This document shows positions 3,134-34,616 of a stretch of DNA of 58,097 nucleotides, one piece after another. The stretch is from a virus. A program made the translations under genes and the position numbers. The stretch lies in the IMG/VR virus record IMGVR_UViG_3300044684_000351, positions 1 through 58,097 of that record. One strand, 5' to 3'. The notes beneath the pieces are model-generated. The model saw nothing but the letters and a program-made list of their open reading frames with translations. It made no database searches and was not told the DNA's origin. The stretch's first letter is position 1. Each line of letters starts with the position of its first letter.

Positions 3134-3137
3134 AATT

Positions 3138-3230: not shown

Positions 3231-3247
3231 AATTTAAGGAAAATAAA

Positions 3248-3352: not shown

Positions 3353-3356
3353 AATT

Positions 3357-3781: not shown

Positions 3782-4137
3782 AACTCCTAGACCCGGCGCG
3801 GCCCGTTACAGAACATGGCCATCCATGTTATCTTAACACCACCATTCCCATTCCTTGCATGATCGCGGGTTCATGTCTTGGCGGCGGCTTCAAAATCGGC
3901 TTCAAAGTGCCAACGGCACTAAATGACACCGCATATAAATACTTCAATCTTGGTGAAACCGTACCGCAATTTTTCGCCGATTGGCTTGATGATCCCGAGG
4001 CGGCGCTAGTAAAATGGATGGGCGCAGACCCTGAATGGCAAAGCAAGGGCAAAGCGCCACACAGCTTCCTTGCCACACCAGAACGGCCCGCTTACGCGCC
4101 CAAACCTAAAGCTACTATTGATGATTTGGATTTTTGA
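3775..4137 (+). CDS. Hypothetical protein with acidic C-terminal tail (120 aa)
   Basis: It overlaps the previous gene by seven bases. The body is Gly/Pro-rich in its first half and Trp/acid-rich in the second (ADWLDDPEAALVKWMG). It ends in IDDLDF after a Pro/Lys-rich linker, a tail that resembles the acidic-hydrophobic peptides by which SSB-type proteins recruit partners. Three other proteins here have related ends. It lies just before the tRNA-Gln gene. Confidence 0.7.
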   Translation: MVKLLDPARPVTEHGHPCYLNTTIPIPCMIAGSCLGGGFKIGFKVPTALNDTAYKYFNLGETVPQFFADWLDDPEAALVKWMGADPEWQSKGKAPHSFLATPERPAYAPKPKATIDDLDF

Positions 4138-4145
4138 ATAAATAT

Positions 4146-4219
4146 TTCAGGGTCGTCTAAAGGTAGGACAACGGACTTTGACTCCGTTAATCGTGGTTCA
4201 AGTCCACGCCCTGAAACCA
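4146..4219 (+). tRNA. tRNA-Gln (anticodon UUG)
   Basis: A standard 74-nt cloverleaf: acceptor TTCAGGG/CCCTGAA, anticodon stem ACGGA/TCCGT with loop CTTTGAC, T arm CGTGG-TTCAAGT-CCACG and an encoded CCA. It lies 23 bases before the polymerase start codon, so the polymerase mRNA must be separated from, or start within, the tRNA transcript. Confidence 0.95.
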
Positions 4220-4242
4220 GATTAAATGGGGGAATTTATTTC

Positions 4243-7003: not shown

Positions 7004-7212
7004 TGGAAATTAAAGCTAATCAACTTTATGTAAATCTAACTGGCGATGAAGTTGCGGAAGCTATTTATCAATATTTAATGCAACATAAAGCACTAAGAAT
7101 ATTTGGACCACGCACAGTCAAAATTGATAAAAAACTATGTAAAGATATTGAATGTAGTATTTTTATTGATCCGTCAGGTTCTATTGAAACGGTAGCAGGA
7201 ATTATAAAATGA
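7003..7212 (+). CDS. Hypothetical protein (69 aa)
   Basis: The ATG with GGAGG eight bases upstream is preferred over an in-frame GTG one codon earlier. The start overlaps the previous stop by one base. The sequence suggests a small alpha/beta fold, with a helix (DEVAEAIYQYLMQHK) followed by strands and two cysteines. No recognisable family. Confidence 0.7.
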   Translation: MEIKANQLYVNLTGDEVAEAIYQYLMQHKALRIFGPRTVKIDKKLCKDIECSIFIDPSGSIETVAGIIK

Positions 7213-7442
7213 AACTTCGCCTTTACTTATTCGACGCAGGTGTAATTTTATTTCTAATCTGCATCTGCGCAATTCAATTAGATAAAGTTCACACTTACGA
7301 ACTTGAATTGCAGAAGAAGGAAAATAAAATAAATTTACAAGATGATGAAATTATTAATTTAAAACAAGAAAATCATCGTCTGCAAGATAGTGTCACTAAG
7401 TTGCTCATGAGGCAACGGCCCGAGGATAGAATTAATCATTAG
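7209..7442 (+). CDS. Single-pass membrane protein with coiled coil (77 aa)
   Basis: Residues about 5-23 form a hydrophobic membrane helix (FDAGVILFLICICAI) followed by a 40-residue coiled coil rich in Glu, Lys and Gln. The topology suggests an inner-membrane anchor with a cytoplasmic or periplasmic rod, as in spanin- or septum-type phage proteins, but the early position argues against lysis. The function is unknown. Confidence 0.7.
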   Translation: MKLRLYLFDAGVILFLICICAIQLDKVHTYELELQKKENKINLQDDEIINLKQENHRLQDSVTKLLMRQRPEDRINH

Positions 7443-7452
7443 GAGAAAAATA

Positions 7453-7695
7453 ATGCCGCCGCGCGATCCTAAAACTGGGAAGTTTGTAAAAGTAAAATAT
7501 GTCTTCACAGAACAAGAAAAAGATAGTTTAAGAGAGTGGCGGAACAAATTTACAAATGAACATGAATATCCCAAAGAAAAAGTCTGGGAAAAATCTTATG
7601 GAATAAAAACCCGGACGAATTATTGGAATTATCTTTTCGTCGGGGTTTTCGGCCTTATTTGCATTTTAATCGGTTATGAATTAGGAGTTTGGTAA
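7453..7695 (+). CDS. C-terminally anchored membrane protein (80 aa)
   Basis: A basic N-terminal section (DPKTGKFVKVKY), a charged middle and a C-terminal membrane helix (YLFVGVFGLICILIGYELG). AGGAG lies upstream of the ATG. It may act at the inner face of the membrane. No family recognised. Confidence 0.7.
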   Translation: MPPRDPKTGKFVKVKYVFTEQEKDSLREWRNKFTNEHEYPKEKVWEKSYGIKTRTNYWNYLFVGVFGLICILIGYELGVW

Positions 7696-7875
7696 ATGGA
7701 ACTTTCAGAATATGATCTTGAAAATTATAAAAAGCTTTTAGCTTTCATTGAACTAGCTAAACATAATTCGCCAGGACGCCAAATGATTGAAATAAAAACG
7801 GAGGGAACTGATCCATACTGTTCCCTCCGAATACATGCAAGTACGTTTAAAAAACTTATAATTGAGCAAGTTTAA
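7696..7875 (+). CDS. Hypothetical protein (59 aa), last gene of the plus block
   Basis: The ATG follows the preceding stop directly. The protein is short and helical at its N-terminus with a beta-type end. Its last 20 bases overlap the convergent lipase gene on the other strand. A nine-pair hairpin lies inside the coding region and may end plus-strand transcription. Confidence 0.65.
   Translation: MELSEYDLENYKKLLAFIELAKHNSPGRQMIEIKTEGTDPYCSLRIHASTFKKLIIEQV
7800..7828. terminator. Hairpin at the convergence of early and late blocks
   Basis: GGAGGGAAC and GTTCCCTCC pair perfectly around an 11-base loop, inside the last plus-strand gene and just before the convergent minus gene ends. No uridine tract follows on either strand, so it is either a factor-assisted terminator or an RNA-stability element. 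Confidence 0.45.
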
Positions 7876-8563
7876 CCCAATCTTCTAAATACTTTTCCGG
7901 CTTGTGATCTTCAATACTTTCATCCCACCACGGCCATTTTTCAACGTATTCCGGCGCGTTAGATGTTAAATGAAGTATCGGCGTTTGTTGAATAAACTTT
8001 GGCGCGAGAATAGGATGATTAAGAGCAAAATCACATTCGCGGCCAATAACAATTGATTCGCCGTACCGGGCATTCAACGTGGCGCTAAAGTCTTTGTCCA
8101 TCCCGCATGGCGGGGCGAGCGCAATCCGCGTAAGCTTAACGTTATCGGGAACGCGCGCGGCGGCAAGCAACGTCCGAATGCCTCCCATGGAATGTCCAAC
8201 GATGTATGTGCGCGGCGTCCAGGGAATGACCGCGGCGTCGAGCAATGACCACAACGGCGCGGCGTACCCGTCCATAGCGAAGCCCGGCACGCCTTGCGCC
8301 GTCACTTCCTCAAACCGTTCATTATCCAAAAGTTGCGCTAAACTAAATCCATCTGTAAATTGCGTGCCGCGCACCCCAAGCACCAAATCCCCATTCCGTC
8401 GTACCACCGTAATAAAACACTCTCCATTTCCAATAACTTTAACAAACTCCATCCCATAACTAACCACCAAATCATGACACTTACTAACATCCAACTCATA
8501 TGCGCCTTCACACGCAAGCTGAATAAGAGGAAGTAATTCTTTAAAATTAGGCATATTATTCAT
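7856..8563 (-). CDS. Class 3 lipase-like alpha/beta hydrolase
   Basis: A 235-residue protein with VRGTQF before the nucleophile elbow, the elbow GHSMGG (Ser near residue 125), an Asp in REDF-like context (ECDFALNHP) and a late His (EDHKPEKYL), which together give a Ser-Asp-His triad in the lipase 3 order. There is no signal peptide. It follows the lysis genes on the late strand, separated by a terminator and an inserted endonuclease gene. A role in attacking host lipids during exit, or as a virion enzyme, is inferred. GGAG precedes the ATG. Confidence 0.75.
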   Translation of the reverse strand: MNNMPNFKELLPLIQLACEGAYELDVSKCHDLVVSYGMEFVKVIGNGECFITVVRRNGDLVLGVRGTQFTDGFSLAQLLDNERFEEVTAQGVPGFAMDGYAAPLWSLLDAAVIPWTPRTYIVGHSMGGIRTLLAAARVPDNVKLTRIALAPPCGMDKDFSATLNARYGESIVIGRECDFALNHPILAPKFIQQTPILHLTSNAPEYVEKWPWWDESIEDHKPEKYLEDWVKLAQL

Positions 8564-8577
8564 TATAAATCTCCAAA

Positions 8578-8919
8578 ATGCACGAAAAATATTACGTATA
8601 TCATTTAATTAACCCAATAAATTTAACTCCATTTTATGTGGGTAAAACCTATTCACTTAATAGGCGATTAAAACAACATTTAAAATTAACAACTCCAACA
8701 AGCGCAAAAGCAATAAAAATTTTACTTGAAAATAATATTATACCAATAATAGAAGAAATATATAATTGTAAATATGAAATTCAAGCATTAAAAATGGAAC
8801 AATTTTTTATTAAAAATTATAAAGAACGTGGAATATTTTTAACTAATCATTTATGTTGGAATAGAAAAAATTACATAAAAAATATGAATATTTTAAAAAA
8901 TAATATTAAAATAAAATAA
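8578..8919 (+). CDS. GIY-YIG homing-type endonuclease
   Basis: A 113-residue protein starting with the GIY-YIG core YYVYHLINP ... PFYVGKT, then LNRRLKQHL and a Glu in KMEQFFI. It is extremely AT-rich and on the opposite strand to its late neighbours, wedged between the lipase start (15 bases away) and the terminator of the lysis operon, as expected for a mobile intergenic endonuclease. No associated intron is seen. Confidence 0.85.
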   Translation: MHEKYYVYHLINPINLTPFYVGKTYSLNRRLKQHLKLTTPTSAKAIKILLENNIIPIIEEIYNCKYEIQALKMEQFFIKNYKERGIFLTNHLCWNRKNYIKNMNILKNNIKIK

Positions 8920-8949
8920 AGGGAGGGCGCGAAACCCTCCCTAAATTTT
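8920..8949. terminator. Bidirectional rho-independent terminator
   Basis: AGGGAGGG and CCCTCCCT pair over eight bases around CGCGAAA. On the plus strand AAATTTTT follows, and on the minus strand the hairpin is followed by a T-rich run. It ends the late operon and the endonuclease gene. Confidence 0.85.
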
Positions 8950-9239
8950 TAGTTAGTTTTTCCAAGCGGCGCGGGCGTAACAGGAATTAACCCCGTTCCA
9001 ATTGCATTAGGAAGTGCGCCCGTCGCTTGAGTAATACCAGCACAAGTCGGGCTGGCATTCATCGCGGCGGAATTATCACCAAGGTGAATATAAGTAACGT
9101 TTTCTGTAAAGCCCATATAATTTGTATTAGCGCTAAAGCACCCGGAATGGGTGTCCTTGGTCACATCTGCAAGATAATCTGTTCCTGAACACGCGGAAAG
9201 CAAAAGCACTATGCCAAGCACTGCAAACTTTCTAACCAT
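8949..9239 (-). CDS. Small lipoprotein, probable o-spanin or lysis-cassette lipoprotein
   Basis: The second ATG is chosen because GGAG lies seven bases before it. The first 20 residues are a lipoprotein signal with lipobox LLSAC, so Cys-17 should be lipidated. The mature part is small, Gly/Ala/Thr-rich, with two further cysteines. It is the last gene of the lysis cassette, which fits an outer-membrane spanin subunit, but no partner with a typical i-spanin layout is certain. Confidence 0.7.
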   Translation of the reverse strand: MVRKFAVLGIVLLLSACSGTDYLADVTKDTHSGCFSANTNYMGFTENVTYIHLGDNSAAMNASPTCAGITQATGALPNAIGTGLIPVTPAPLGKTN

Positions 9240-9432
9240 TTCCATTCTCCGTAATAAGCATATTCAAAGCATTCTTCTGTTCATCGCTAATCGAAAGAAG
9301 ACTTGTTGCGGCGGCATTATGCAAATCCCGTTGCGCCGTCAAACTTGCAATCTGCTCATTAAACCCGTCAATTTGCTTCTGCAAATCCGCCGCTTTAGAT
9401 TGCGCCGCATTAATCATATCCTGCACGTTCAT
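9232..9432 (-). CDS. Coiled-coil lysis-cassette protein (66 aa)
   Basis: The ATG is preceded by AGGAAGG. The chain is one long predicted coiled coil (residues about 5-60, Ala/Gln/Lys-rich), with no clear membrane helix. It overlaps the lipoprotein gene by eight bases. It might pair with the lipoprotein, but without a membrane anchor an i-spanin role is doubtful. Confidence 0.65.
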   Translation of the reverse strand: MNVQDMINAAQSKAADLQKQIDGFNEQIASLTAQRDLHNAAATSLLSISDEQKNALNMLITENGNG

Positions 9433-9434
9433 TT

Positions 9435-9653
9435 TTAATTTCCTTCCTGCGTAGGGTTTTGTGGGGTCGCCGCCTTTTTGCTTTGCAAATAATGCGCCAC
9501 AAGACCGCCGGCCCCAATTAAAAGTCCAGCCGCCGCTAAAGCCTGGTTTTGATCTAAGGGTTGCAAAGGCCATTTTGTAATCCACATAAGAAATTCACCA
9601 AGCATTGCCGTAGCGGTGCCGCCGCTGGCGATAGTTAAACCTGTACTATTCAT
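9435..9653 (-). CDS. Small membrane protein of the lysis cassette (72 aa)
   Basis: Two hydrophobic stretches (about residues 5-25 and 40-57, the second Gly/Ala-rich) and a polar C-terminus. GGAG precedes the ATG. Size and place next to endolysin fit a second holin or antiholin. This is inferred from topology alone. Confidence 0.65.
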   Translation of the reverse strand: MNSTGLTIASGGTATAMLGEFLMWITKWPLQPLDQNQALAAAGLLIGAGGLVAHYLQSKKAATPQNPTQEGN

Positions 9654-9658
9654 TTTCT

Positions 9659-10111
9659 TTACTCCATGGGCGTTAAAAATAAAGCTTGTTCGGCATGTCG
9701 CCGTGCACTTAGCCCCGCGTTTTTTTCGCCGTCAACCAAGTCCCACACTAAAAACTGACTGGCCGCATCCGCGAAGTCATTATTATTGAGGTCTTTAAGC
9801 AAAGTTGAATGAGAGAAATTTCCGGCGCCAATGTTGTAAACAAGACTAACTAGCGCTGCAAATTGGTTATCATTAAGAAGCACATGAACGTAATATTGCA
9901 CATAACCTTCGGCATCATGAAGGTTTTCTTGAAACCATGCATTCGCCTGTTCTTGTGTGCAAGTCATACCTTCACTTACGCCCTGCGTATGCCCCCATCC
10001 AATTGTCCAAACGCCGCCTTGATCCAAATACGACGTTAATTTACATCCTTCCTCACCATGAATTAAATTTGCTAAATGTTGAAGTAAATTCGGAGTAACT
10101 TGCCGCAACAT
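9659..10111 (-). CDS. Endolysin, GH24 lysozyme
   Basis: A 150-residue T4-lysozyme-type muramidase. The catalytic region has the expected Glu-x8-Asp-x5-Thr spacing (EEGCKLTSYLDQGGVWTIGW), followed by GWGHTQG and the conserved QFAALVSLVYNIGAG helix. There is no signal sequence, so release needs a holin. It starts next to the holin candidate stop. Confidence 0.92.
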   Translation of the reverse strand: MLRQVTPNLLQHLANLIHGEEGCKLTSYLDQGGVWTIGWGHTQGVSEGMTCTQEQANAWFQENLHDAEGYVQYYVHVLLNDNQFAALVSLVYNIGAGNFSHSTLLKDLNNNDFADAASQFLVWDLVDGEKNAGLSARRHAEQALFLTPME

Positions 10112-10357
10112 TCAATCCTCCTCATCTTCAAAATCCGTCGCGCGCGATTTTTGTTTGCGGCGTAATCCAATAAAAACGAGAAACTGCATAAGAAGTTTAT
10201 ACATACGCAATCCAAGTACAATCGCCGTAGCAATAAGTACAAACGCGCGCAACCCAGGTTCAAATAAATTTAACCACCAAGGACTAAGCGCCCCACTAAC
10301 AACCATAACTCCATCCATAATATGATGCCCTACACCCTCAGTTGGCGTTTTATTCAT
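10112..10357 (-). CDS. Holin candidate (81 aa)
   Basis: The start is taken at the ATG after GGGGAAATGA. Residues about 36-66 give one long or two short membrane helices, preceded by an amphipathic Trp-rich segment and followed by a basic then acidic tail (RRKQK ... EDEED), a layout common in holins. It lies directly before the endolysin gene. Confidence 0.7.
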   Translation of the reverse strand: MNKTPTEGVGHHIMDGVMVVSGALSPWWLNLFEPGLRAFVLIATAIVLGLRMYKLLMQFLVFIGLRRKQKSRATDFEDEED

Positions 10358-10358
10358 T

Positions 10359-12410
10359 TCATTTCCCCTGCTTGAGTTCTTCAACTTGCGCGCTAAGTTC
10401 TTGCACTGCTTGCCATAAAATTGGAATAAGCTGATCCATGCGAAGGCCGCACAAACCGGAAGTAGGGTCTTGCGTGAAGCCTGCAAAATCCAATTGATTA
10501 CCAGCACTATCTTGAAGTCTGCTTGTCACCTCTTTAATTTTTTGCGCCGAAAAGCCAAAGTGGGTTCGCTTGCCGACGCGCGATTGCATAATAGTTTTAG
10601 TTACAAGTTTCTTTTCAGTACGCGGAACGCGATGCAAACGCTGCGTCCGTATTTCCGGCGTTGCTTCAACAATTACTTCGCCTTTTTCGTTTTTAACTTC
10701 TTCTTTGGCCGGGGTAATGTCATAAATAGGATTTCCCGCCGCGTCAAACACCGGAAATTCATCATACACTTGATGCTTAATCACATCCGGCACTTCAACT
10801 TGAATGGCCCGGCCATCCACAATTTTTGTTTCGCGACGCGTCGTTTGAATTTCTTCAAATACCGGAACGTCTTCTTCTTGAGTAACTTCAATCGGCTCCA
10901 TACCGCCGTCTTTATGCTTATATGCAATTGGATCGGTATTTTTCACCAACTCCAACATATTTTGCGGAAGCGGCGCGATATCAAATTTTACATTCTCATC
11001 CGAAGTATTAATTGTACCAGTCGCCGCGTATACAACGCTCCAACGTTGCAAAGAAGTTCCCAAGGAAACAACGTTATCACTTCCGGTATAAACGGCGGTA
11101 GTCGCGTTAAGCTGCACATTAGTCCAATGCGTACTGTCGCCTATAATCACACTAGCGCCGCTAGCTTCGATGAGATTATATTGCGCCGTTCCGCCGGCAT
11201 TTACGCCATAAACGCCCGTACCTTGTCCAACCAAAAGCCCCTGACTAACGCCCGAAGACGCTTGAGAAAGGTCAATAAGCGCTCCGCTTTTACTGCCATA
11301 AATCTTCATTCCATTGACAATTCCAGTGGAAGTATCAAGGAACGCGGCGTTAAGGAAATTCGTGCCAGCGACGGCAAAACCATACCAGCATCCGCCCGCA
11401 AAACTTACGGCAGCAAAACCAGAAGTAGTTTTATTCGTACCACCCATGGACGCGATTGCGCCGTAGCAGGAAACGGCAGGGCCGGTTACAAGATCCGCGT
11501 AATCACTGCCAGAATTATTATTAACGTCAATTTCATATCCATCCGCGTTATAAAGTCCGGCGGCGGCGGTCGCAACAGTAGTTACTGTGTTAATTGCCCA
11601 AATATTCGACGTGCCGGTATTACCAGTCATACCTGCGTAAAGAGCAACCTTGTCGGCATAATTTGGCGGCCCGGCATTAGCACTCCCAGTTGCGGACGTA
11701 AATCCAAGGCAAACCATAAATTCGCGAGTAGTGGCAGATGCTGCGTTAGTTTGAACGTTAAAGGAAGTAAGAGTTGTGATGGCAGCATTTCCCGTTGGAC
11801 TGACTGAAATCGACGGGGAAGTTGTAATACTATCATTAAAAATTGCTGGCGGCGGCGACATAATATCAAAATTAGTGCCGTTCCAAGTAATTAAAGTTGT
11901 CACACCAGAATGCAACAAGTTTGCCGGAACTGAACTACTTCCGCGAAAATTTGCCGTTTGAAATCCGAGACCAGAAATATTAATATCAACGGGGTTATTT
12001 CCGGAATTGGCCGCAGACGCAATAAATTCAAAGTTTTGGCCGGCAACAAGTGCAGTGATAGCGGGAGTGGGGGTAAGGGTAATACTATCTCCACTGCCTC
12101 CCGCAAGTCCACACCAAAGCACGACTTGACCTTGAAGCACAGATGTTAAATCCTGCGTTTGCGCGTCCCATTGAAGATTGCCAGCGCTATCATAAACCTG
12201 TTGACGATACGCGCCAGCGCCGTAAATAACTGCCTCGCCATTTGCATCAAGCACAATCGGATTAGTATTTAACTGCGTTTGGCCCGCGTCTTTCCACGTA
12301 TTTTTCAGCGTGGTAGTGTTGGGAATATACATATAAACGGAGCCGCCCGCCAATGGCTGCCCATTACCGTTAAAGAATTGTTGTTTTGCATTAGGAAGAA
12401 GGGTAGCCAT
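10359..12410 (-). CDS. Tail fibre/spike with C-terminal S74 intramolecular chaperone
   Basis: A 683-residue virion protein. The N-terminal 90 residues match the phage fibre head that starts LLPNAKQQFFNGNGQPLAG. The middle is Ser/Thr/Gly/Ala-rich fibre sequence. Residues about 500-680 are a Peptidase_S74 chaperone (SDENVKFDIAPL, HFGFSAQKIKEV), which normally cuts itself off after trimer folding. A long Glu/Val/Lys-rich insertion splits the S74 domain. A stretch with GYEIDVNNNSG resembles one in the neighbouring fibre gene. It probably binds the host receptor. Confidence 0.87.
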   Translation of the reverse strand: MATLLPNAKQQFFNGNGQPLAGGSVYMYIPNTTTLKNTWKDAGQTQLNTNPIVLDANGEAVIYGAGAYRQQVYDSAGNLQWDAQTQDLTSVLQGQVVLWCGLAGGSGDSITLTPTPAITALVAGQNFEFIASAANSGNNPVDINISGLGFQTANFRGSSSVPANLLHSGVTTLITWNGTNFDIMSPPPAIFNDSITTSPSISVSPTGNAAITTLTSFNVQTNAASATTREFMVCLGFTSATGSANAGPPNYADKVALYAGMTGNTGTSNIWAINTVTTVATAAAGLYNADGYEIDVNNNSGSDYADLVTGPAVSCYGAIASMGGTNKTTSGFAAVSFAGGCWYGFAVAGTNFLNAAFLDTSTGIVNGMKIYGSKSGALIDLSQASSGVSQGLLVGQGTGVYGVNAGGTAQYNLIEASGASVIIGDSTHWTNVQLNATTAVYTGSDNVVSLGTSLQRWSVVYAATGTINTSDENVKFDIAPLPQNMLELVKNTDPIAYKHKDGGMEPIEVTQEEDVPVFEEIQTTRRETKIVDGRAIQVEVPDVIKHQVYDEFPVFDAAGNPIYDITPAKEEVKNEKGEVIVEATPEIRTQRLHRVPRTEKKLVTKTIMQSRVGKRTHFGFSAQKIKEVTSRLQDSAGNQLDFAGFTQDPTSGLCGLRMDQLIPILWQAVQELSAQVEELKQGK

Positions 12411-12422
12411 TTTAAAGGTTCC

Positions 12423-12758
12423 TTATTGGGACTGGAAACCGGAAATGAAAGCATTTAAAGAAGAGGCGACGGACGCTGAAGCCTTAATACTTTCACCTGA
12501 TTTAAGTACAAGATTAGCAAGCGCCGCCGCGACGAATTGTTCTCCAGCGCTAATGGGTTGTTGATTAATGAGAGTAAAATTCGTCACGCCATCTGCGAGA
12601 AATTTCTGTACGGTAAGCAAAACAGGTACGGTTAAGAGACTTGAAAAAACCGCGCGCCGAATTGTCACTAAAGCCGAGGCAGGGGCAATATATAAATTCG
12701 TCGGCACCGTACTAATCAACTGTCCGCTGCAAAGTTCAATTGGTAGTGTCTGTGCCAT
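12423..12758 (-). CDS. Small virion-associated protein (111 aa)
   Basis: The start is at the ATG after GGAGTTACAG. Ser/Ala/Leu/Val-rich beta-type sequence with ALVTIRRAV in the middle, resembling phage proteins that decorate fibres or necks. It lies between the two fibre genes. A structural role is inferred. Confidence 0.65.
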   Translation of the reverse strand: MAQTLPIELCSGQLISTVPTNLYIAPASALVTIRRAVFSSLLTVPVLLTVQKFLADGVTNFTLINQQPISAGEQFVAAALANLVLKSGESIKASASVASSLNAFISGFQSQ

Positions 12759-12891
12759 TTTTCTGTAACTCCGCGAGTTTCTCAGCCATAGATTTATTTT
12801 GTTCTTGAAGAGTTTCAATTTGAGATGAAAGAGTAATAACCTGCAACATCAAATCACCAATCATCATTTTAAGTTTAGTTTGGGCGTCCAT
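12736..12891 (-). CDS. Coiled-coil protein (51 aa)
   Basis: Almost wholly a helical coiled coil (Gln/Leu/Glu-rich). AAGGAT lies upstream of the ATG. It overlaps the next gene by 23 bases. Possibly a fibre assembly helper, unproven. Confidence 0.6.
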   Translation of the reverse strand: MDAQTKLKMMIGDLMLQVITLSSQIETLQEQNKSMAEKLAELQKNGTDTTN

Positions 12892-18533: not shown

Positions 18534-19595
18534 TTATTGGCCTTTCAAATCAAGTTTATACATATGGCCGAAATCTTCGGCACCGAGGCGTTTATACAAA
18601 GTATCAAGTTTATTGCCAGAACCGCGCGTACCAGCGCGAAGAAAAAGCTCATCCACATTAGTTTCTTTTAAATATTGTACAGCCGCGCGTTGAAGTTTCA
18701 ACCCCAAACCTGGAAATTCTTTAGAGGCAAAGAAAGTTAAATTGAACGCGGATTTATCCGTTTGACTTTCTAAAGACGGCCCAATAACAGTCATTAAATA
18801 TCCAAACATACGGCCATTGCAACGTGCTGTAAGAATTTGAAGACAACCTAATTGGTCTAACGTGCGTAGCAAAGGAATATTTTTATTTGCAAAATTATCA
18901 GGATGTTCGCCGACAACAACTAAATGTTCTTTAAATAATTTAACAGCGTCATTATAATAAGTTTCAAAGGGCTCTTTTTGAATGGTAATGCCATCTGGAT
19001 TTATAATTTTACCCGCATTAAGATCAATGATAGATTGCGCTTTTGCCTGAGCGATAAATTTTTCAAATTGAGGTTTAAATACGGCGCAATATTTAAGTAA
19101 AGCCTGCATATTAATTTGAATATTTTTGCCCGATAAATTCAACCAATGACTAACGTCAAATTCATATGGAAGGCAATATTCAAAAATTTGCCGACAAGTT
19201 TCCATTGACCTTAATTCTTCAAAGGTAACAGAAATAGAATTTTTGTGCCGTTTTTCAATTTGATTGAGTTTGTTTTCATATTTTTTAAATAGAGGATAAA
19301 GGGCTTCTTTGGAAATGTTTGCGCCGGCGGCAATATAACTATTCACAACATCGTCAAGATTGCGCCGCAAAATTATAATTTTTGTATTCGGCGAAAGTTT
19401 ATTAAATAACCTCCACCACGGCGCCGCCGCCGTTTCAACACTTCCAATATTTTCCTGGCTAATCCAAGATTTTACATCGTCAAAATTATGTAAATGTTGC
19501 AATTCATCGTGGCCGCAATGCCAATCTTTGTAGGTTAAGAAAGTAGAAAGCCATTTACTACGCGAACGCGGCATGGAGTAAATAATATAATTCAT
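18534..19595 (-). CDS. Sulfotransferase-like domain fused to GNAT acetyltransferase
   Basis: A 353-residue fusion. The N-terminal part has a PAPS-type P-loop (SMPRSRSKWLSTFL) and a later IIILRRNLDDVVNSY element like the 3'-phosphate-binding motif of sulfotransferases. The C-terminal ~130 residues look like a GNAT fold: GRMFGYLMTVIGP, FFASKEFPGLGLKLQRAA and LYKRLGAEDFGHMY. The start is the ATG that overlaps the previous stop. It sits inside the tail accessory/ejection genes, where a virion protein would be expected. It could modify host surface glycans or a virion protein. Domain calls are from motifs only. Confidence 0.7.
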   Translation of the reverse strand: MNYIIYSMPRSRSKWLSTFLTYKDWHCGHDELQHLHNFDDVKSWISQENIGSVETAAAPWWRLFNKLSPNTKIIILRRNLDDVVNSYIAAGANISKEALYPLFKKYENKLNQIEKRHKNSISVTFEELRSMETCRQIFEYCLPYEFDVSHWLNLSGKNIQINMQALLKYCAVFKPQFEKFIAQAKAQSIIDLNAGKIINPDGITIQKEPFETYYNDAVKLFKEHLVVVGEHPDNFANKNIPLLRTLDQLGCLQILTARCNGRMFGYLMTVIGPSLESQTDKSAFNLTFFASKEFPGLGLKLQRAAVQYLKETNVDELFLRAGTRGSGNKLDTLYKRLGAEDFGHMYKLDLKGQ

Positions 19596-19942
19596 GCGCC
19601 CCATCCCGAACCAATACAATTTACTTTCGACGCGGCATCCGCATTAGCCCAAATAGTGTCGCCAGGGTTAAGAGTAAGTGCGTTAAATTCAACCGCGGTA
19701 TAACTTTGATAAGCCGCGAGAGATTTTAAAATAATAATCGCGTTAGTATTCGAAAGACTGCCGCCGCTGCGAACTACATATGCGGAAAAGGTGTGGGCGC
19801 TGCCATCTGAATTACAAAAGGTTACGTTGGAAATTAAAATTGGCGAGTTAAGACTTGGCGCGGTATAAATAAGTGCGGACGGGCCGCCACCCGCAAGTAC
19901 AAGCTGAAGAGGCCCCCATAAAGCTTTAGGTTGAACAATCAT
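19592..19942 (-). CDS. Small tail-cluster protein (116 aa)
   Basis: The ATG overlaps the stop of the gp10-like gene. Ser/Asn/Ala-rich beta-type sequence, with a PGDTIWANADAASKV motif found in small beta-sandwich phage proteins. It is probably a virion or head-tail connector component. No family name assigned. Confidence 0.65.
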   Translation of the reverse strand: MIVQPKALWGPLQLVLAGGGPSALIYTAPSLNSPILISNVTFCNSDGSAHTFSAYVVRSGGSLSNTNAIIILKSLAAYQSYTAVEFNALTLNPGDTIWANADAASKVNCIGSGWGA

Positions 19943-27589: not shown

Positions 27590-28969
27590 TTATTTCATCC
27601 AACCAAGACCGGACGTGCCGGGTTCACGATTATAACTTTTGCCGCGAAGGCCAAAAAAGCTGCGGGCACTTTGTGGCGGCGCGGGCTGCACATGGCCCTT
27701 TTGCTTATGCCCAGAACGTCCAATACTCAATGCCAAATACCTAAAGCTATCCGCGCCATGCGAAGACCAGTCATGAACTGGCACCTTACTGAACTGCTTA
27801 TGCTCTTTATCCGCCGTCTCATCGACTTCATAACGGTAATGTTTGAGGGCCTTCAATCCCTCCGAGCACTTTTCCTCATCAAACCAGCAATTTGGGATGA
27901 TAGTACGTACAGCGTTAATACCATCGTTAAGAGAAAGTTTAGGCACAATTCGCACATTACGGCCCGACTTTTTGCAAATCTCTTCAATTGTCATTCCAGT
28001 GCGAAGGTCTTTCGCTTTTGCATCGTGCGGTAGCCAATCGGTACCATAGATGTATTGTTTCTTTTGCAAAACGTCGAGATAATGTTGAATAGGTTTTTGA
28101 GAATTAGTATAGTAATCGATAATTCGGATATCAAAGCCAACTTGTTGCGCGAACCAAATGGAAGTGCTGTCGGCCCAGCCTAAATCCCAGAACGTGTGCA
28201 CGGCGGTTGAACGATCCCACGGAACATTCGTAATACGCTTATCCATAATAAGCTGGCGAATTTCTTCCGCGTAAACGGCGCCGTCTAGAATTACTTTACA
28301 ATGCCCTTCCCACACATTCATATATGCATCGTAATCCTTTTCCATCAGTTCATCTTTTTCCTTGCGGAGAACTTCAGGAAACCACGGATTGTCGCGCCAA
28401 GAGACCATCTTTACAATGGCGTTACCAGGCGGTTTCTTAACAAAACGAAGATACGTATCATCTTCCTCTAAGTCCGGGTTAAAACTTACCCAAATTTCAG
28501 ACTGAGAAATGATGTTACCTTTGTCGTCTTTAACTTCCTTACGGATTGTAGGGATAAGAATGTCCCAGGATTTTTTACTAACTGTTTGCGCCTCTTCCAC
28601 CCAACAAAAGTCAACACCTTCAAAGGATTTGATCTTAGTTACGGTGCTAGTGCGCAAGCCCGCGAAGGCAAATTCACTTCCGGTTACGGTGCAACGAATG
28701 GAACTTTGAAGAACCTCAAAATATTGCCCGAAACCCATTTCATGAATTTGGTCGGACAGAAGTTTATAAACAGAGTCAGTAATTGAAGTTTGAAGTTCGC
28801 GCGCACAAAGAATGCGGACTTTACGTTGCAAGGCAATGCAGATAAGGGCGCGAGCAAAAGACCAGCTTTTAGCGCTACCTCTTCCGCCATAATACACCTT
28901 ATACCGGTTCGGTTTGAATAAATCTTCAAACGCCGGCGCAAAGGTAATATTTGCCTCAAAATCTTCCAT
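27590..28969 (-). CDS. terL: Terminase large subunit
   Basis: A 459-residue motor-nuclease. It has Walker A GGRGSAKSWSF (near residue 30), Walker B VDFCWVEEAQ (about 120), coupling motif around WVSFNPD, and an RNase H-like nuclease with FWDLGWADS and a late HGADSFRYLAL acid. It starts after two very small genes and ends one base before the portal gene. The sequence is closest in pattern to the Terminase_3 group. Confidence 0.92.
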   Translation of the reverse strand: MEDFEANITFAPAFEDLFKPNRYKVYYGGRGSAKSWSFARALICIALQRKVRILCARELQTSITDSVYKLLSDQIHEMGFGQYFEVLQSSIRCTVTGSEFAFAGLRTSTVTKIKSFEGVDFCWVEEAQTVSKKSWDILIPTIRKEVKDDKGNIISQSEIWVSFNPDLEEDDTYLRFVKKPPGNAIVKMVSWRDNPWFPEVLRKEKDELMEKDYDAYMNVWEGHCKVILDGAVYAEEIRQLIMDKRITNVPWDRSTAVHTFWDLGWADSTSIWFAQQVGFDIRIIDYYTNSQKPIQHYLDVLQKKQYIYGTDWLPHDAKAKDLRTGMTIEEICKKSGRNVRIVPKLSLNDGINAVRTIIPNCWFDEEKCSEGLKALKHYRYEVDETADKEHKQFSKVPVHDWSSHGADSFRYLALSIGRSGHKQKGHVQPAPPQSARSFFGLRGKSYNREPGTSGLGWMK

Positions 28970-29100: not shown

Positions 29101-29292
29101 TCAATTCCTCGGCCAGTTAGGGGTCCAATTCCAGTCGCGCGACATATTAAAAAATTGATTGTAAGAAGTCAGAGGTTGTCCATATTGTGTGTAAAGTTCA
29201 AATCCTCGGTCTCCCGGCGCGACAACTCTATTTTCTTCCCAGGCTCCGTATTTATATTCAAGTTCTTCTTCGACTTCTTGCCGCGTTTGCAT
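29101..29292 (-). CDS. Small acidic/aromatic protein (63 aa)
   Basis: The start is supported by AGAAAGG. Glu-rich helix first, then a Trp/Tyr/Asn-rich end (SRDWNWTPNWPRN). No recognisable family. It precedes the 41-residue basic protein and terL. Confidence 0.6.
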   Translation of the reverse strand: MQTRQEVEEELEYKYGAWEENRVVAPGDRGFELYTQYGQPLTSYNQFFNMSRDWNWTPNWPRN

Positions 29293-29376: not shown

Positions 29377-30810
29377 TTAATACTCGGCAGAAGCGGTGAT
29401 TTTACCGCCGCCGGTGGAATTGCCGGACATGAGGGTACCAGCAAAACCGGCGGTATCGCCAGCAGCCACGGTGGCTGTAATGGTCACTTCATTTACATCC
29501 GAGACGCCGTTAGTAGTAGCAGCGGCGGCGCAAGCAGTAAGAGCCGTGTCCGTACCGGCAACCATGCGTTTCAAAGTACCAAAGGTGCAAGTAATAGTCG
29601 GCGCAACGCGGAAGTTAACAGCAGCGCGCGCTTTACAAACCGCAACAGTAGTGCTCTGAGCAACGCAAAGGAATGGACTATCCGTAGTAGCCGAAGCCGT
29701 TTCGTCCCATTCCCAATAATACTGTTGTTGAAGAACCTGTTCCAACCCAGCGGAACGGAAATCAAATCCAGACGCGACAACCGGAACGGCATAAGTGGAA
29801 ACATATTTCCAAGTGCAAGTGCCGTCAACAAAGTTGGCCGTGCCCGAAGGTGCGGTGCTGGCAGCAGTGCAAGAAGTTGCAGTTTCAGAGTAAAGATTGC
29901 CATTAGAAACTACAGTTTCACCGAACAAGTAGTTTCCAAGTGCGGCCCAAGACGCGGACTGCGTGGCAGCTTCAAGCTGAATACCCGCAAATTCAAACCA
30001 CTGGTTAGTGGAAGAAATGCCCGTGGGTGTGAAAGAAAAGCTCACGCCAACCTGCTTCATAGTGGACGCGATCGGATAAGAACAGGTATAACGCGCCCAA
30101 GAAGTAGTCGGAGTAATGGTGCAGGAGTTAGAAACTTCGCCCGTCCATCCGGCAGCAACCATATTAGCGGCACTACCATCCGTTCCAGTGCCAGAATTAA
30201 TCGTCGCGGTGAAAGTAGTCGGCGCGGCGCTGCCCTTCTTAGCCCAGAAAGAAAGTACGGCGGTGTTGCCAACAAACTTAAGGGAATTAGAAGTGCTAAC
30301 AACCTGACCGAAGTTAACCACGGCGGTGTCAGTGGTGGAAACCTGAGAAACGCGAAGGGACGCGCCGAACTGATTATTCGGAGCTAGGGGAAGGTTAGTA
30401 GTTTCTTTTAGAAGAGAAATCGCCGAAGACGCGCCACCAACGGCAAACCAACGGTCGGGGCCGTAAGTAACAGTGTTGCTAATGCCCGTTACGCTAGTGC
30501 CACGCTGGAAAAGATTAGTAGTGAAATCGCCGCCGATAAGAGCATTACGTGAACCGCCGGGGCCGGCGGTAAGATAATTGCCAAGGGTAGCGGCGCTAAT
30601 ATATTCCGACGCGGGGTTCTGGCCGTTCGGAAGTTGAGTGTCAACAACCCAACTTTCGTTGCCGGAAAGCGGAAGAGTGCCGGAAGTGGTATTAGGGCTA
30701 GGCCAAGTCGCCTGACCAAGACTACCGTTCTGACCATAATAGCCAGAAGCAAGGGCAGCGGTCGAAATGCCCGCCACAGCCGCCCCAATGAGAAGAGATT
30801 TAAGCTTCAT
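29377..30810 (-). CDS. Exported fibre/decoration-like protein with Sec signal (477 aa)
   Basis: The first 22 residues are a clear signal peptide: basic start (KLK), hydrophobic core (SLLIGAAVAGI) and AxA-type cleavage site (ALAS). The mature protein is Thr/Ser/Ala/Gly-rich beta sequence with a lectin/CBM-like middle (RWFAVGG, FEFAGIQLEAATQSA), as in phage fibre distal domains, and several cysteines that suit an oxidising compartment. AAAAGGAAC precedes the ATG. Signal-bearing fibre-type proteins are unusual in a phage. It may be displayed on the infected cell. Role unproven. Confidence 0.75.
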   Translation of the reverse strand: MKLKSLLIGAAVAGISTAALASGYYGQNGSLGQATWPSPNTTSGTLPLSGNESWVVDTQLPNGQNPASEYISAATLGNYLTAGPGGSRNALIGGDFTTNLFQRGTSVTGISNTVTYGPDRWFAVGGASSAISLLKETTNLPLAPNNQFGASLRVSQVSTTDTAVVNFGQVVSTSNSLKFVGNTAVLSFWAKKGSAAPTTFTATINSGTGTDGSAANMVAAGWTGEVSNSCTITPTTSWARYTCSYPIASTMKQVGVSFSFTPTGISSTNQWFEFAGIQLEAATQSASWAALGNYLFGETVVSNGNLYSETATSCTAASTAPSGTANFVDGTCTWKYVSTYAVPVVASGFDFRSAGLEQVLQQQYYWEWDETASATTDSPFLCVAQSTTVAVCKARAAVNFRVAPTITCTFGTLKRMVAGTDTALTACAAAATTNGVSDVNEVTITATVAAGDTAGFAGTLMSGNSTGGGKITASAEY

Positions 30811-30842
30811 TTTATGTTCCTTTTCTTCCCGCCGGTTTGTCT

Positions 30843-30880
30843 AGCTTGAGGTTAAGGGACGGGACTTAACGCGTCAAGCT
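30843..30880 (-). terminator. Imperfect hairpin between two exported-protein genes
   Basis: AGCTTGA and TCAAGCT, with an inner GTTAAG/CTTAAC, form a long imperfect stem between the stop of the 86-residue gene and the start of the 477-residue gene. Confidence 0.55.
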
Positions 30881-30889
30881 GGAAATCGA

Positions 30890-31150
30890 TTAATCTTTTG
30901 AATGATCTTTGCGGTATTTTTCCGCGTCGGATTTAATTTGATTCTTTTCTTCTTGGTCCTTAGCGTCCTGAGAAGAAAGTTGACTTTGGAGTTTATTAAT
31001 TAAAGTGGATACTTCGGAATACGGACGCGCTGCGAGAACCTGACCAATATAACCAATTTCTTGGCCGGAAAGGGTTAAAGTGTAATTTTTCGGTTCTTCG
31101 GCGAACGCCGTTGATGAAAGTAAAAGAAAGAAAAGGGCCGATTTTTTCAT
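30890..31150 (-). CDS. Small periplasmic protein with Sec signal (86 aa)
   Basis: The second ATG is chosen because TGGAG lies seven bases upstream. Residues 1-19 form a signal peptide (KKSALFFLLLSSTAFA). The mature part is helical, Gln/Lys/Glu-rich, and resembles a phage-family protein with a SGQEIGYIGQVLAARPY motif. Probably soluble in the periplasm. Confidence 0.72.
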   Translation of the reverse strand: MKKSALFFLLLSSTAFAEEPKNYTLTLSGQEIGYIGQVLAARPYSEVSTLINKLQSQLSSQDAKDQEEKNQIKSDAEKYRKDHSKD

Positions 31151-31161
31151 TTTATTCTCCA

Positions 31162-32628
31162 TTAAAAAACTGGAATATAACCGACAGTTCCATTTAGAGT
31201 TATTTTAAGCCACTGTTGAACAGTAGTGTGGGAGCCGGTCGGGCCGACAGAACCTAAAGAAGTTGCAACAGCGCCATTAACTGCGAAAGCGTTAGTAAGA
31301 GCTACTGTAGCGTCAGAAAGAGTTGTAGTGCCGCCAGTGCTTCCAATATTAAGATTTCCAGCATTAGTATTAATTACTCCAGCAGACGCCCCACTCGTCA
31401 CCGTCACATAATCAGCGCCGGAGGCATTGTCGAGGATGGCGAACTGGGTCCGTGATCCACCGCCGGTTATGAATGCAAACGGGCTCGTCCCCTTAGTGGT
31501 GAAATTCATTCCCACATTTGTATCGCTGCCAACAGCATTCAATCCAATACTGTTGCCCGTAGTATTACCATTTACACTTAAATAGTTAACCCATGCAGCA
31601 CCACTGGGAGAGGCGGCAACGAAGCTCCTATAGGTACCATCGCCAATAGTAAGACCACCTGTTCCAAGCTCCATCCCCTGCACCGCCGTACCTGCCGTGG
31701 TGCTGGTGTACCAATCGTGCTTGGCGACGTTGTAGGTGGTGCCTCGGGTGATTAAATATGCCAGCGTATTGGAACTTTTTGCGTCATTAAGTGCGCGAAT
31801 GGCAAAACCAGTGCTATCAACCCTATGATCCCATGTACCTACGTCAGTTCCAGCGCCGGTAGCAGTAAAATAATGCTCCAGAGATGTGCTGGCTCCGCCG
31901 AAAACAAACGTTCCATTACTAGTAACTGTAAGGCTTCCACTTGTAGGTCCAAACGTTGCGCTCGCGCCGAGGGTGAGGTTGCCGGAGATCAGCGCTCCAC
32001 CGTTCACCTGCAACTTCTGCCCGCCACCCTGGTCGAAGGTATAGCCGAGGAGAGTGCGCTGGGAGGAATCAAAACGCGCGGCTTCTGTAGATGAACCAGA
32101 AGAATTTGTAGTGAAGAATTTGATGTTTCCAGGGACGATGCCAGTGGAGATCGTGCCTTCTGTACTCATTCTTATTTGGCTTGACGTTATGTAATTCGTT
32201 CCGTCGAATGAAGTTGCCGTCATGGCGGCGGTATCATCGCCTGAAGTAACAACACTCGGTGATGCCGCCGTACCTCTTGACTTAAGAAAAACAATAGAAG
32301 CCGGATTAGCTGTCGCAGCAGACTTCCTAAGCCCGATAACAGAGCCGGCGGCAGTGTTGGTGCTCAATAAGGAATTAAGAATGGTCTGACCAGTTGGCGA
32401 CGTTTGATCCCCAGAGCCGAGGAAACTGAACGCACCGTTAGCCTGAGTGGTTTGGCCTATGGGCGTATTATCAATAGTCCCGCCGGTAATAGTTGGATTA
32501 GTAATAGTACATCCGGCACAAATAAGACCGGAAATGCTATTCAATCCCTGAATTTGCTGAGCAAAAGAAGGCGAAGAAGCGCCAATTAAAAGCACCGCGA
32601 TGCTAGTGGATTTAAGAAATTTATTCAT
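31162..32628 (-). CDS. Exported tail-fibre-like protein with Sec signal (488 aa)
   Basis: The ATG that overlaps the previous stop gives an N-terminal signal (FLKSTSIAVLLIGASSPSFA). The mature protein is Gly/Ser/Thr/Ala-rich, with repeated strand-turn units typical of phage fibre shafts and ends (LTLGASATFGPTSG). A GC-rich stretch from about 31390 to 32200 differs from the AT-richer ends, suggesting recombination. It lacks an S74 domain. Surface or periplasmic display is inferred. Confidence 0.72.
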   Translation of the reverse strand: MNKFLKSTSIAVLLIGASSPSFAQQIQGLNSISGLICAGCTITNPTITGGTIDNTPIGQTTQANGAFSFLGSGDQTSPTGQTILNSLLSTNTAAGSVIGLRKSAATANPASIVFLKSRGTAASPSVVTSGDDTAAMTATSFDGTNYITSSQIRMSTEGTISTGIVPGNIKFFTTNSSGSSTEAARFDSSQRTLLGYTFDQGGGQKLQVNGGALISGNLTLGASATFGPTSGSLTVTSNGTFVFGGASTSLEHYFTATGAGTDVGTWDHRVDSTGFAIRALNDAKSSNTLAYLITRGTTYNVAKHDWYTSTTAGTAVQGMELGTGGLTIGDGTYRSFVAASPSGAAWVNYLSVNGNTTGNSIGLNAVGSDTNVGMNFTTKGTSPFAFITGGGSRTQFAILDNASGADYVTVTSGASAGVINTNAGNLNIGSTGGTTTLSDATVALTNAFAVNGAVATSLGSVGPTGSHTTVQQWLKITLNGTVGYIPVF

Positions 32629-33055
32629 AATCGACATACACCGTATCAGCAGCGCCAGAACACGTAACTTGGATTACATCTTGAGGAATGTATCCTGAGT
32701 TACGAAAGTATTGGCCATTAGGGGGGAGAAGAATGGAATTAGAAGTATTAGCAGGGCCGCCGCCAATATAAAGATAGCAGTTATGGCCATTAGTGTTGTT
32801 GTTAATTACCGTAAGGGCTTTGCGTGAAGGATTTGCGGCGAGAGCCTGCTGAAAAGTACCGCCCGTTGCAATAATCTGCGAGGCATTTGTAGTTTGAACG
32901 GCGGCGGGCACATTCGTAGAAATTGGAAATGGCGTAGAATTATTAACCGGAATGCAACCCGAGGAAGTTGGTAAGCAAATTTGAGTTTGATTTACCTGGG
33001 CATGGCCCGCACTTCCAAAGAAAAGCAAGCCGAGAAGGAGAAGATATTTCTTCAT
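32621..33055 (-). CDS. Small exported protein with Sec signal (144 aa)
   Basis: AAGGAAAGC precedes the ATG. Residues 1-19 are a signal peptide (YLLLLGLLFFGSAGHA). The mature part is a small beta-sandwich-like sequence with four cysteines, including a CLPTSSGC pair, and a SRKALTVINNNTNGHNCYLYIG segment that recalls phage/decoration immunoglobulin-like domains. It overlaps the next gene. Confidence 0.72.
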   Translation of the reverse strand: MKKYLLLLGLLFFGSAGHAQVNQTQICLPTSSGCIPVNNSTPFPISTNVPAAVQTTNASQIIATGGTFQQALAANPSRKALTVINNNTNGHNCYLYIGGGPANTSNSILLPPNGQYFRNSGYIPQDVIQVTCSGAADTVYVDYE

Positions 33056-33065
33056 TTTGCTTTCC

Positions 33066-33458
33066 TTATTGCTGCGAAGCTACAAAAGCATCCGTAGCGG
33101 TGCCGGTAATGGAAACTTGGTCTTGGAGAGTTGAGCCGTTTGCCAAGGAGCAAAGGATTGCCGCGCCGGGGCCAACTTGAAAAGAATTGGTTAAAGTTGC
33201 ATTTGCGATCGGCCCGAAAAATACAAACATAGTGTGCGTGCCGTTATTTTGCACTGTACAAGAAGTACGACCACGCGCGCCAGGATTGCTAGTTTGGGTG
33301 TTTGCGAAAATGCTTTGGAAGGTATTAGTTACAGAAATTGTGCCCGAAACAACAGTGGTAGTAACCTGCAAAGGCACTACCTGAACTGCTTGCTGTGCAA
33401 AAAGAGGGCCGGAATACAAAAGCATTCCTAGCAGGAAATTTTTAATAAAAGTTTTCAC
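33066..33458 (-). CDS. Small exported protein with Sec signal (130 aa)
   Basis: A GTG start with GGAGACGGG upstream. Residues 1-21 look like a signal (FLLGMLLYSGPLFAQQ). The mature domain is beta-rich with one Cys pair (SCTVQNNGTHTMFVFFG) and shows the same general pattern as the neighbouring 144-residue protein (nucleotide-free beta sandwich), so the two may be distant paralogues. Confidence 0.7.
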   Translation of the reverse strand: MKTFIKNFLLGMLLYSGPLFAQQAVQVVPLQVTTTVVSGTISVTNTFQSIFANTQTSNPGARGRTSCTVQNNGTHTMFVFFGPIANATLTNSFQVGPGAAILCSLANGSTLQDQVSITGTATDAFVASQQ

Positions 33459-33802: not shown

Positions 33803-34009
33803 TTATTTTCCTTTTAAAACGAGATTTGCTTTCCGGTCAATTTTCTTTTTCGACGCGGGGGAAAGCTTACCCGCTTTAACTTCTTTAGAAGCGTAAGATT
33901 TGGCAACGCGAGCGTGAACTTTATCTTCAACGGGATATTTACGCTCGGCGGGGAGGCCAAATTTCGAGGAAGGAATTTTCTTTCGGGCGGCGGCGGTAAG
34001 TTTAGCCAT
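33803..34009 (-). CDS. DUF6582-like small basic protein (68 aa)
   Basis: A lysine/alanine-rich protein beginning LTAAARKKIPSSKFGLP and containing YPVEDKVHARVAKS, a pattern seen in small phage proteins of the DUF6582 type. It overlaps the end of terS by eight bases. Confidence 0.7.
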   Translation of the reverse strand: MAKLTAAARKKIPSSKFGLPAERKYPVEDKVHARVAKSYASKEVKAGKLSPASKKKIDRKANLVLKGK

Positions 34010-34616
34010 TTAAAACCTCCGAAGTGCCTTCTATGGTGACGCCGGGAGAGGAATTAGTAAAGTTGATGTTTACTTTGAGTCCGCCATTTTGCCCGTTTCC
34101 GTTGCCGCCAAACTTAGTAGAGAGGTTTTTAGTTGGCGCTACGGAACGGTCATATGTTTTTTCTACAAGTTCAAGAAGTTCTCGGTTTTTAAACTGATCC
34201 GGCGTTTCTTCCATACGTTCGCGAAGAATTTCGAGCGCCGTTGTGCCTACATCTGCGAGACGTGCTTGATGATCCACAAAAGCTTTTTTGCTTTCGTCAA
34301 TGTAAAAGGCAACAAGCTCTTGAAAAGCCGGATCGGCGCAAAGTTGGCTAACGCGGACGGCGGAAATTCCACAAATGAGGGAAATTTCCGTGTACTTGCG
34401 TCCCTCGGCAATTAATTGCGCGATGCGGTGATGGGACGCGCGAATTTTTACTAAGCTCGGCGCGACATTTAAACCCTTAGTGGGGTTTTGCAAAGCAATC
34501 ATATCGGCTTCAGAAAGCGGCGCGACGGAAATGATTTCTACGTTCGCCGGTTGTTTGCCGCGCGTGCCGGAAAGCTTGGAACGGAGAAGGGCCTGGGTCG
34601 CTACGTCGATAGTCAT
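34002..34616 (-). CDS. terS: Terminase small subunit
   Basis: A 204-residue protein from the ATG that starts TIDVATQ. A helix-turn-helix lies near residues 70-100 (IAQLIAEGRKYTEISLICGI SAVRVSQL, split here), then a helical oligomerisation region (FVDHQARLADVGTTALEIL) and a Gly/Asn-rich tail. It recognises the packaging site and feeds DNA to TerL. The gene is unusually far (about 5 kb) from terL, with the exported-protein genes between. Repeats upstream of the start may be its binding site. Confidence 0.75.
   Translation of the reverse strand: MTIDVATQALLRSKLSGTRGKQPANVEIISVAPLSEADMIALQNPTKGLNVAPSLVKIRASHHRIAQLIAEGRKYTEISLICGISAVRVSQLCADPAFQELVAFYIDESKKAFVDHQARLADVGTTALEILRERMEETPDQFKNRELLELVEKTYDRSVAPTKNLSTKFGGNGNGQNGGLKVNINFTNSSPGVTIEGTSEVLNG

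Follow-up and report, generated by a model that had tools for sequence, protein, structure and literature searches.

Five adjacent signal-peptide genes near terL of an environmental podovirus and the possible export of tail-fibre-type proteins

A 58,097-nucleotide stretch of viral DNA (IMG/VR record IMGVR_UViG_3300044684_000351, analysed at full length and called the window below) contains a block of five genes, here named SP1 to SP5, whose products each begin with what looks like a secretory signal peptide (Table 1). The window also encodes a P22-type portal (PF16510, 1.4e-161) and a P22-type coat protein (PF11651, 8e-33). The five genes stand in tight tandem with intergenic gaps of at most 79 bases, the start of SP3 overlaps the end of SP2, and a purine-rich, ribosome-site-like stretch is found 5′ of SP1, SP2, SP4 and SP5. 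The original prediction, made from the sequence alone, placed this run between terS and terL; the block does lie there and terL is firm, but small genes intervene on both sides (two separating terS from SP1, and at least one open reading frame (ORF), 29101-29292, between SP5 and terL) and the terS call is weak.

Table 1. Positions of SP1-SP5 and of other genes of the window discussed in the text
Feature	Position	Strand	Remarks
SP1, 130 residues, GTG start	33066..33458	(-)	signal peptide 33396-33458; small jelly-roll-type domain, SP2 paralogue
SP2, 144 residues	32621..33055	(-)	signal peptide 32999-33055; predicted 8-strand jelly roll
SP3, 488 residues (491 from upstream ATG)	31162..32628	(-)	signal peptide 32560-32628; fibre-like
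SP4, 86 residues (90 from upstream ATG)	30890..31150	(-)	signal peptide 31100-31150; small, no Cys
SP5, 477 residues	29377..30810	(-)	signal peptide 30748-30810; jelly roll ~90-282 and C-terminal beta domain, tail-fibre-like
terL	27590..28969	(-)	downstream of block; PF04466, E 1.5e-38, firm assignment
terS-like gene	34002..34616	(-)	upstream of block; phrog_2538, E 0.023 only, plus position; weak
Tail fibre of the window	10359..12410	(-)	N-domain of tailspike head-binding type, C-terminal S74; no signal peptide, 5 Cys
Lipobox protein (LSAC), o-spanin-like	8949..9239	(-)	lysis region; assigned by eye

All five products carry the features of a Sec signal peptide cleaved by signal peptidase I, namely a basic tip, an uncharged hydrophobic core and an AxA-like site, with predicted cleavage (SP1 to SP5 in order) at LFA↓Q, GHA↓Q, SFA↓Q, AFA↓E and ALA↓S and predicted mature N-termini QQAV, QVNQ, QQIQ, EEPK and SGYY. 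On a home-made scorer they reach 10.65, 12.72, 12.8, 13.55 and 13.58, compared with 12.2-14.2 for six E. coli signal peptides and no call for three cytosolic proteins. The lowest of the five, SP1, has an orthologue scoring 14.43 in the nearest relative (locus L002). The false-positive rate on 5,007 shadow ORFs was 2.8% at a threshold of 10.5 and 1.3% at 12, and because it is only ∼3% we reject a chance origin of the run; five adjacent calls have a probability of ∼1e-8, a figure still to be multiplied by 96, the number of ORFs retained for the window. At threshold 12, which SP1 does not reach, the other calls in the window are 7209-7442, 8949-9239 and a Tat-like call at 12423. Lipoproteins were ruled out, as SP1-SP5 have no lipobox and the +1 residue is never cysteine; membrane proteins were likewise ruled out, no further membrane span being evident because the mean Kyte-Doolittle hydropathy of the mature parts stays at or below 1.28 over any 19-residue window. 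The five-gene signal-bearing block is real, and the initial claim of five consecutive signal-peptide genes with products of 130, 144, 488, 86 and 477 residues is borne out by the features, the scores and the error rate.

When checked in the nearest relative the block proved to be conserved, as L002 (terL 90% identical) holds all five orthologues in the same order. The letters of the signal regions have drifted (7/18, 6/19, 7/22, 10/17 and 15/21 identities for SP1 to SP5), yet the signal features are kept in all five. This persistence of hydrophobic and cleavage features speaks against a reading in which the N-terminal segments are uncleaved structural or membrane-active tips of virion proteins that stay in the cytoplasm, where tail fibres are normally made. 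Mature parts share 89/108, 97/125, 140/363, 52/69 and 394/452 residues, i.e. 75-87% identity in four of the five proteins with SP3 as the exception, and the nonsynonymous rate (dN) is well below the synonymous rate (dS) in each; by this comparison of two sequences the mature parts are under purifying selection. Every one of the 16 cysteines that SP1-SP5 have in the window is kept in L002. In SP3 the N-terminus with Cys37/Cys40 is conserved and the rest is divergent, as would be expected if the protein were a receptor-binding fibre, constant at its base and variable elsewhere.

Intramolecular disulfides tend to go with even numbers of cysteines, and the parity of cysteines in the mature part, which is not used in signal calling, served as an independent test of export on fibre-like proteins of at least 100 residues clustered at 45% identity. 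Signal-bearing clusters were 47 even, 4 odd and 2 without cysteine, versus 30 even, 44 odd and 33 without cysteine for signal-less clusters (Fisher 1.9e-9), and the cysteine density was 1.44% versus 0.61%. In the tailspike head-binding family described below, signal-bearing members were 8 even and 0 odd (closed ORFs) and signal-less members 21 even and 41 odd. Within the window the signal-bearing SP1 to SP5 have 2, 4, 2, 0 and 8 cysteines and the signal-less fibre 10359-12410 has 5. A count of 19/19 even in alignment A5 is biased, its rows being signal-called proteins plus those of the window. We know of no artefact that links parity to the N-terminus, and the parity indirectly supports export. 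As the even-cysteine excess is seen only where the hydrophobic segment is present, it also argues against uncleaved tips. The suggestion that cysteine pairs suit the periplasm agrees with both parity and conservation, except for SP4, which has no cysteine to pair.

Pfam and PHROG searches returned no convincing family for SP1-SP5, the best matches (E 0.03 in Pfam, 0.0048 in PHROGs) being to families of unknown function or implausible ones; no head-binding N-domain was matched in them by either database, and this domain is found instead in the fibre 10359-12410. The AlphaFold2 model of SP5 (mean predicted local distance difference test, pLDDT, 66.7) contains the jelly roll and C-terminal beta domain listed in Table 1, and its top-ranked Foldseek matches are phage CBA120 tailspike 4 and carbohydrate-binding modules (CBMs) in the PDB, and in BFVD phage tail fibres together with CenC-like carbohydrate-binding proteins of phages. 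Judged by the fold of this model, SP5 is of tail-fibre type. SP3 is 34.5% identical over 24% of its length to the Synechococcus phage S-CBP2 tail fiber (E 1e-4), suggesting a weak relation to tail fibres, and the expectation that the two large products would be fibre-like is upheld by fold for SP5 and by this cyanophage match for SP3. The named phage collection holds no close homologue of SP1, SP2 or SP4, one weak match to SP5 and five cyanophage records matching SP3. Single-sequence searches of viral contigs gave no relatives of SP3 or SP2, and sequence searches of the PDB gave no match for SP5 and only two, at E 1, for SP2. Among named genomes, SP5 matched only a contig of a Hyphomicrobiales metagenome-assembled genome (L141) and, weakly, Gemmataceae; L141 carries SP5 and two signal-bearing fibres and is probably a binned phage.

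SP1 and SP2 are paralogues (32% identity). SP2 is modelled as an eight-strand jelly roll (pLDDT 77) whose best Foldseek match is a Bacillus endospore appendage (Ena) protein annotated as 'disulfide-linked pili' (7a02, E 1.1e-3; also 8pdz, 9i0y and 9t3p), and it carries a cysteine pair in its N-terminal arm. Both observations would suit a role in which the exported proteins are released free, soluble or polymerised, as carbohydrate binders, enzymes or disulfide-linked filaments that never enter the virion. However, the Ena match is marginal (Z 8.6 at a root-mean-square deviation (rmsd) of 6.3 by VIA) and other jelly rolls do as well or better, including PM2 spike P1 (Z 8.9, rmsd 2.1), the VIA-align rows for SP2 being tied. 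The N-terminal cysteines are not conserved, as L061 and L114 have SP2 homologues that lack them, and no sign of release was seen, so that we regard free products as distinctly unlikely.

Signal peptides of the same kind precede genuine head-binding domains in other phages. The window's fibre starts MATLLPNAKQQFFNGNGQPLAGG (MATLLPNAKQ) without a signal, and in L131 and L133 (from the phages of L008 and L040) a signal comes first and ATLLPNGKQVFFNGNGQPL and ATLLPPGQQTFTDANGKPL follow at the predicted cleavage site (junctions ...AVSAHA↓ATLLPNGKQ and ...LPASA↓ATLLPPGQQ). Named relatives start MATLLPEGKQ (Rhodoferax phage P26218), VATLLPNGKQ or MTQLLPNGKQ, with no signal. When six rows of this N-domain (the signal-bearing L073, L107, L131 and L133 and the signal-less L134 and window fibre) were combined into a profile, it hit 'Tailspike head-binding domain' 7eeq at E 2.2e-7 and 'Tail spike protein' (9vyg/9vyh) at ∼1e-7. 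VopV, the top-ranked row of that search, is a sum of weak repeats and was not used. A family scan gave at least 569 relatives, and of the 80 loci kept the signal was called in 9 and not in 68, with 3 left undecided; L159 and L215, signal-bearing by eye, count as signal-less in this tally and are labelled signal-bearing on the tree. On that tree (63 rows of the 80 loci), which is poorly resolved with its bootstrap not settled, at least three changes of the trait are needed, and there are too few pairs for a tree-based parity test. The 68 of 80 homologous fibres that lack the segment are what cytoplasmic proteins with occasional uncleaved tips might show; but cleavage would give back the exact normal N-terminus, and Tat-like starts are seen, by eye, at the same position in L061 and L040, and we consider uncleaved tips very improbable. 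Because genuine head-binding tailspikes elsewhere carry the same signal, export and a virion-fibre role are compatible. In the contrast originally drawn between exported proteins and virion fibres, the exported look stands, but the one need not rule out the other.

Scanning with the SP5 family alignment gave 42 loci; with L090 left out and the weak calls L105 and L111 not counted as signal-bearing, the signal was confident in 18/41, weak in 2/41 and absent in 21/41 (one of the 21 being open at its 5′ end). Where the match ran past query residue 370 a signal was called in 13 of 14 cases, the lone exception, L101, being a longer fibre whose match begins at residue 199, and many loci matching only the carbohydrate-binding domain (86-284) are ordinary signal-less fibres with starts like MAISSVLGSSALLPAGLGFRNVLINGDF. 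The SP2 family scan found a signal in all five of its loci (L112-L116, two at only 10.58), and SP1 homologues with a signal peptide occur in L002, L072, L084 and L116. Multi-gene blocks recur as well: L077 has eight signal-bearing genes (57 to 631 residues, 3705-11176), L084 six, the last directly at terL and with predicted exported proteins of up to 1,286 residues, L075 five close together, and L072 four plus SP5. Across all loci signals were called in 61/132 fibre-like ORFs of at least 200 residues versus 24/788 other ORFs (Fisher 1.8e-38), where the fibre-like and cysteine samples were partly drawn via the SP5 search and the ORFs are mechanical rather than gene calls. Genes upstream of terL were flagged in 21/336 cases versus 15/799 elsewhere and 67/4,056 shadow ORFs (threshold 12; 51 of the 69 terL loci), and the excess is modest, so the terL clade does not share the trait as a whole. 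The trait is common in environmental podoviruses and far from universal; its conservation is real and the phenomenon is probably recurrent.

The signal-bearing proteins of the relatives include recognisable fibre domains: a tail-collar domain in L107 (PF07484, 8.9e-13), a pectate-lyase-type domain in L075 (PF12708, 1.9e-10) and an S74 chaperone in L071 (3.4e-5). Among named phages the signal-bearing proteins of L071, L040 and L058 had no match. In record G005 (67 kb) all large fibre- or tailspike-type genes are signal-bearing, including one of PF12708 pectate-lyase type, and families of tail fibres or tailspikes were matched by 0/10 tested signal-less ORFs; the receptor-binding protein of G005 is therefore likely to be an exported one. 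The C-terminal third of the L196 fibre is ∼35-48% identical to annotated tail fibre and tail collar proteins of many cultured phages; this signal-bearing fibre also matches 28 of 385 alphaproteobacterial genomes, nearly all in its C-terminal domain (L223-L237). Proteins encoded just upstream of terL in L061 (2292-3758 and 4261-6132) and L040 (8728-9414) have Tat-like starts (RRSLVLAAPALLL, NRRTLLLATTAALLL and SRRGLLAGACGLIASG), and some related phages may use the Tat route as well. Separately, a signal-bearing protein of ∼300 residues occurs in L049 (12078-12983), L053 (8417-9319), L054 (12743-13654) and L058 (11661-12563), in the last directly after a gene of coat-protein size (413 residues). 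Short signal-bearing proteins of ∼80-92 residues, similar in size to SP4, lie by exported fibres in L075 (15640-15993), L093 (14652-14957), L072 (4381-4761) and L127 (10250-10492); our guess is a common accessory role, for example as a periplasmic fibre chaperone.

On balance we lean, if only just, towards the view that the five genes encode receptor-binding or decoration proteins of tail-fibre type with cleavable Sec signals, which are exported and join virions at lysis. Late in infection the host Sec machinery would export SP1-SP5, signal peptidase I would trim the signals, and the proteins would fold and form disulfides in the periplasm, remaining there during the cytoplasmic construction of heads and tails. 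Lysis would then mix both pools and the exported fibres would join virions, splitting virion assembly between two compartments. Docking might take place on the unexported head-binding fibre 10359-12410 in the window's phage, and directly through the fibre's own head-binding domain in its relatives. A host with an outer membrane is indicated by the o-spanin-like lipobox protein. From these sequence features we infer, with good confidence, the export and periplasmic oxidation of the signal-bearing fibres, and are less sure that exported fibres attach to virions. The latter is suggested because exported tailspikes retain a head-binding domain whose usual N-terminus cleavage restores, because the large fibre and tailspike genes of G005 are all signal-bearing and its tested signal-less ORFs lack a fibre match, and because the signal-bearing genes are located among those for heads and tails. 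In vitro, P22 heads receive their tailspike as a late step, which makes joining at lysis plausible.

Several points weigh against this proposal. The signals were called with a scorer of our own making, and the parity p-values are optimistic because the rows are related. Neither Pfam nor PHROG matches a virion-docking domain in any of SP1-SP5, residues 1-85 of the SP5 model are of low confidence (mostly pLDDT <50), and the phage already has an unexported head-binding fibre, so the five proteins could act elsewhere. Signal-bearing members are a minority of the head-binding family and of the loci found through terL alone (9/23 fibre-like ORFs), and six named phage records have a signal in 0/18 fibre-like ORFs.

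One such role elsewhere would be on the infected or lysogenic cell, where the proteins, in the periplasm or at the surface, might mask receptors, block superinfection or neutralise debris. Export as backed by cysteine parity, the separate unexported fibre and receptor-binding-type domains able to cap receptors would all be consistent with this, and lambda Lom provides a precedent for an exported product from the tail region (available part of PMC12309495). We nevertheless judge it unlikely, as SP1-SP5 show no lipobox, membrane span or match to a known exclusion family in Pfam or PHROG, the sizes and numbers in relatives (1,286 residues in L084, eight genes in L077) are excessive for exclusion, and the head-binding, collar, pectate-lyase and S74 domains of the relatives are fibre domains. 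For the cell coat, superinfection block or filaments first suggested for the block, no supporting evidence was found.

A wider claim, to which we give somewhat less than an even chance, is that in a widespread group of environmental podoviruses heads and tail hubs are made in the cytoplasm and fibres and tailspikes in the periplasm via Sec (in some via Tat), the two being joined at lysis, with the signal gained or lost in front of an unchanged head-binding domain. Tailed phages are taught as assembling wholly in the cytoplasm, and fibre export, if true, would change that picture; it would also account for how phages can make use of disulfide-rich receptor-binding proteins and would raise the question of effects on infected cells or their neighbours before lysis. 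For annotation, the lesson is that a signal peptide does not rule out a virion role, and the cysteine-parity test is a cheap support for export in uncultured viruses.

Elsewhere in the window, the gene at 18534-19619, between head-closure and ejection genes, resembles, by PHROG matches, a hydrolase over residues 9-171 and an acetyltransferase over 227-356; a similarity to a sulfotransferase stays below threshold. An alpha/beta-hydrolase-like product with weak Pfam matches is encoded near the lysis genes (7856-8563), three tRNA genes, Leu(taa), Ile(tat) and Gln(ttg), lie at 3045-4219, and an internal Tat-like, hydrophobic start is present in the small gene (12423-12818) that lies immediately upstream of that for the tail fibre.

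The protein kind proposed here, the tail fibre, is known, and the assembly route would, if proven, be new for tailed phages. In line with the original statement that no system of this form was described, we found no description of tailed-phage tail fibres or tailspikes with secretory signals in the literature searched, whose coverage mostly leaves out subscription papers and preprints; in the available parts of PMC3556154, PMC9144972, PMC3765740 and PMC13001222, signals come up only in connection with lysis proteins, methods or references. Lambda Lom is signal-bearing and encoded between the tail spike and tail fibre genes (available part of PMC12309495), but it is an outer-membrane beta-barrel, unlike the fibre-type proteins in multi-gene blocks seen here. 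Ena shares with SP2 the marginal fold match and the N-terminal-arm cysteine pair; however, Ena are Bacillus spore pili, and the SP2 family has no conserved N-terminal cysteines and no sequence match to them. P22-type phages resemble the window in portal, coat and terL, and the N-domain of their tailspike (7eeq, 9vyg, 9vyh) is common to the window fibre and the signal-bearing homologues elsewhere, whereas a signal peptide is missing from the named relatives examined and SP1-SP5 give no Pfam or PHROG match to the head-binding domain. CBM-tipped tail fibres (Xanthomonas phage FoX4, OP1h, BcepNazgul and CBA120 TSP4) have a fold like that of SP5 but differ from SP5 and its full-length relatives, which have signal peptides and even cysteine counts. 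Coat proteins of filamentous phages are membrane-anchored and assembled during extrusion. For those of the M13 pIII type, Sec export precedes assembly (available part of PMC8310372), and the proposal for SP1-SP5 resembles them in that a virion protein would be exported via Sec, but differs in that the phage is tailed, the proteins are soluble and the folds are unrelated.

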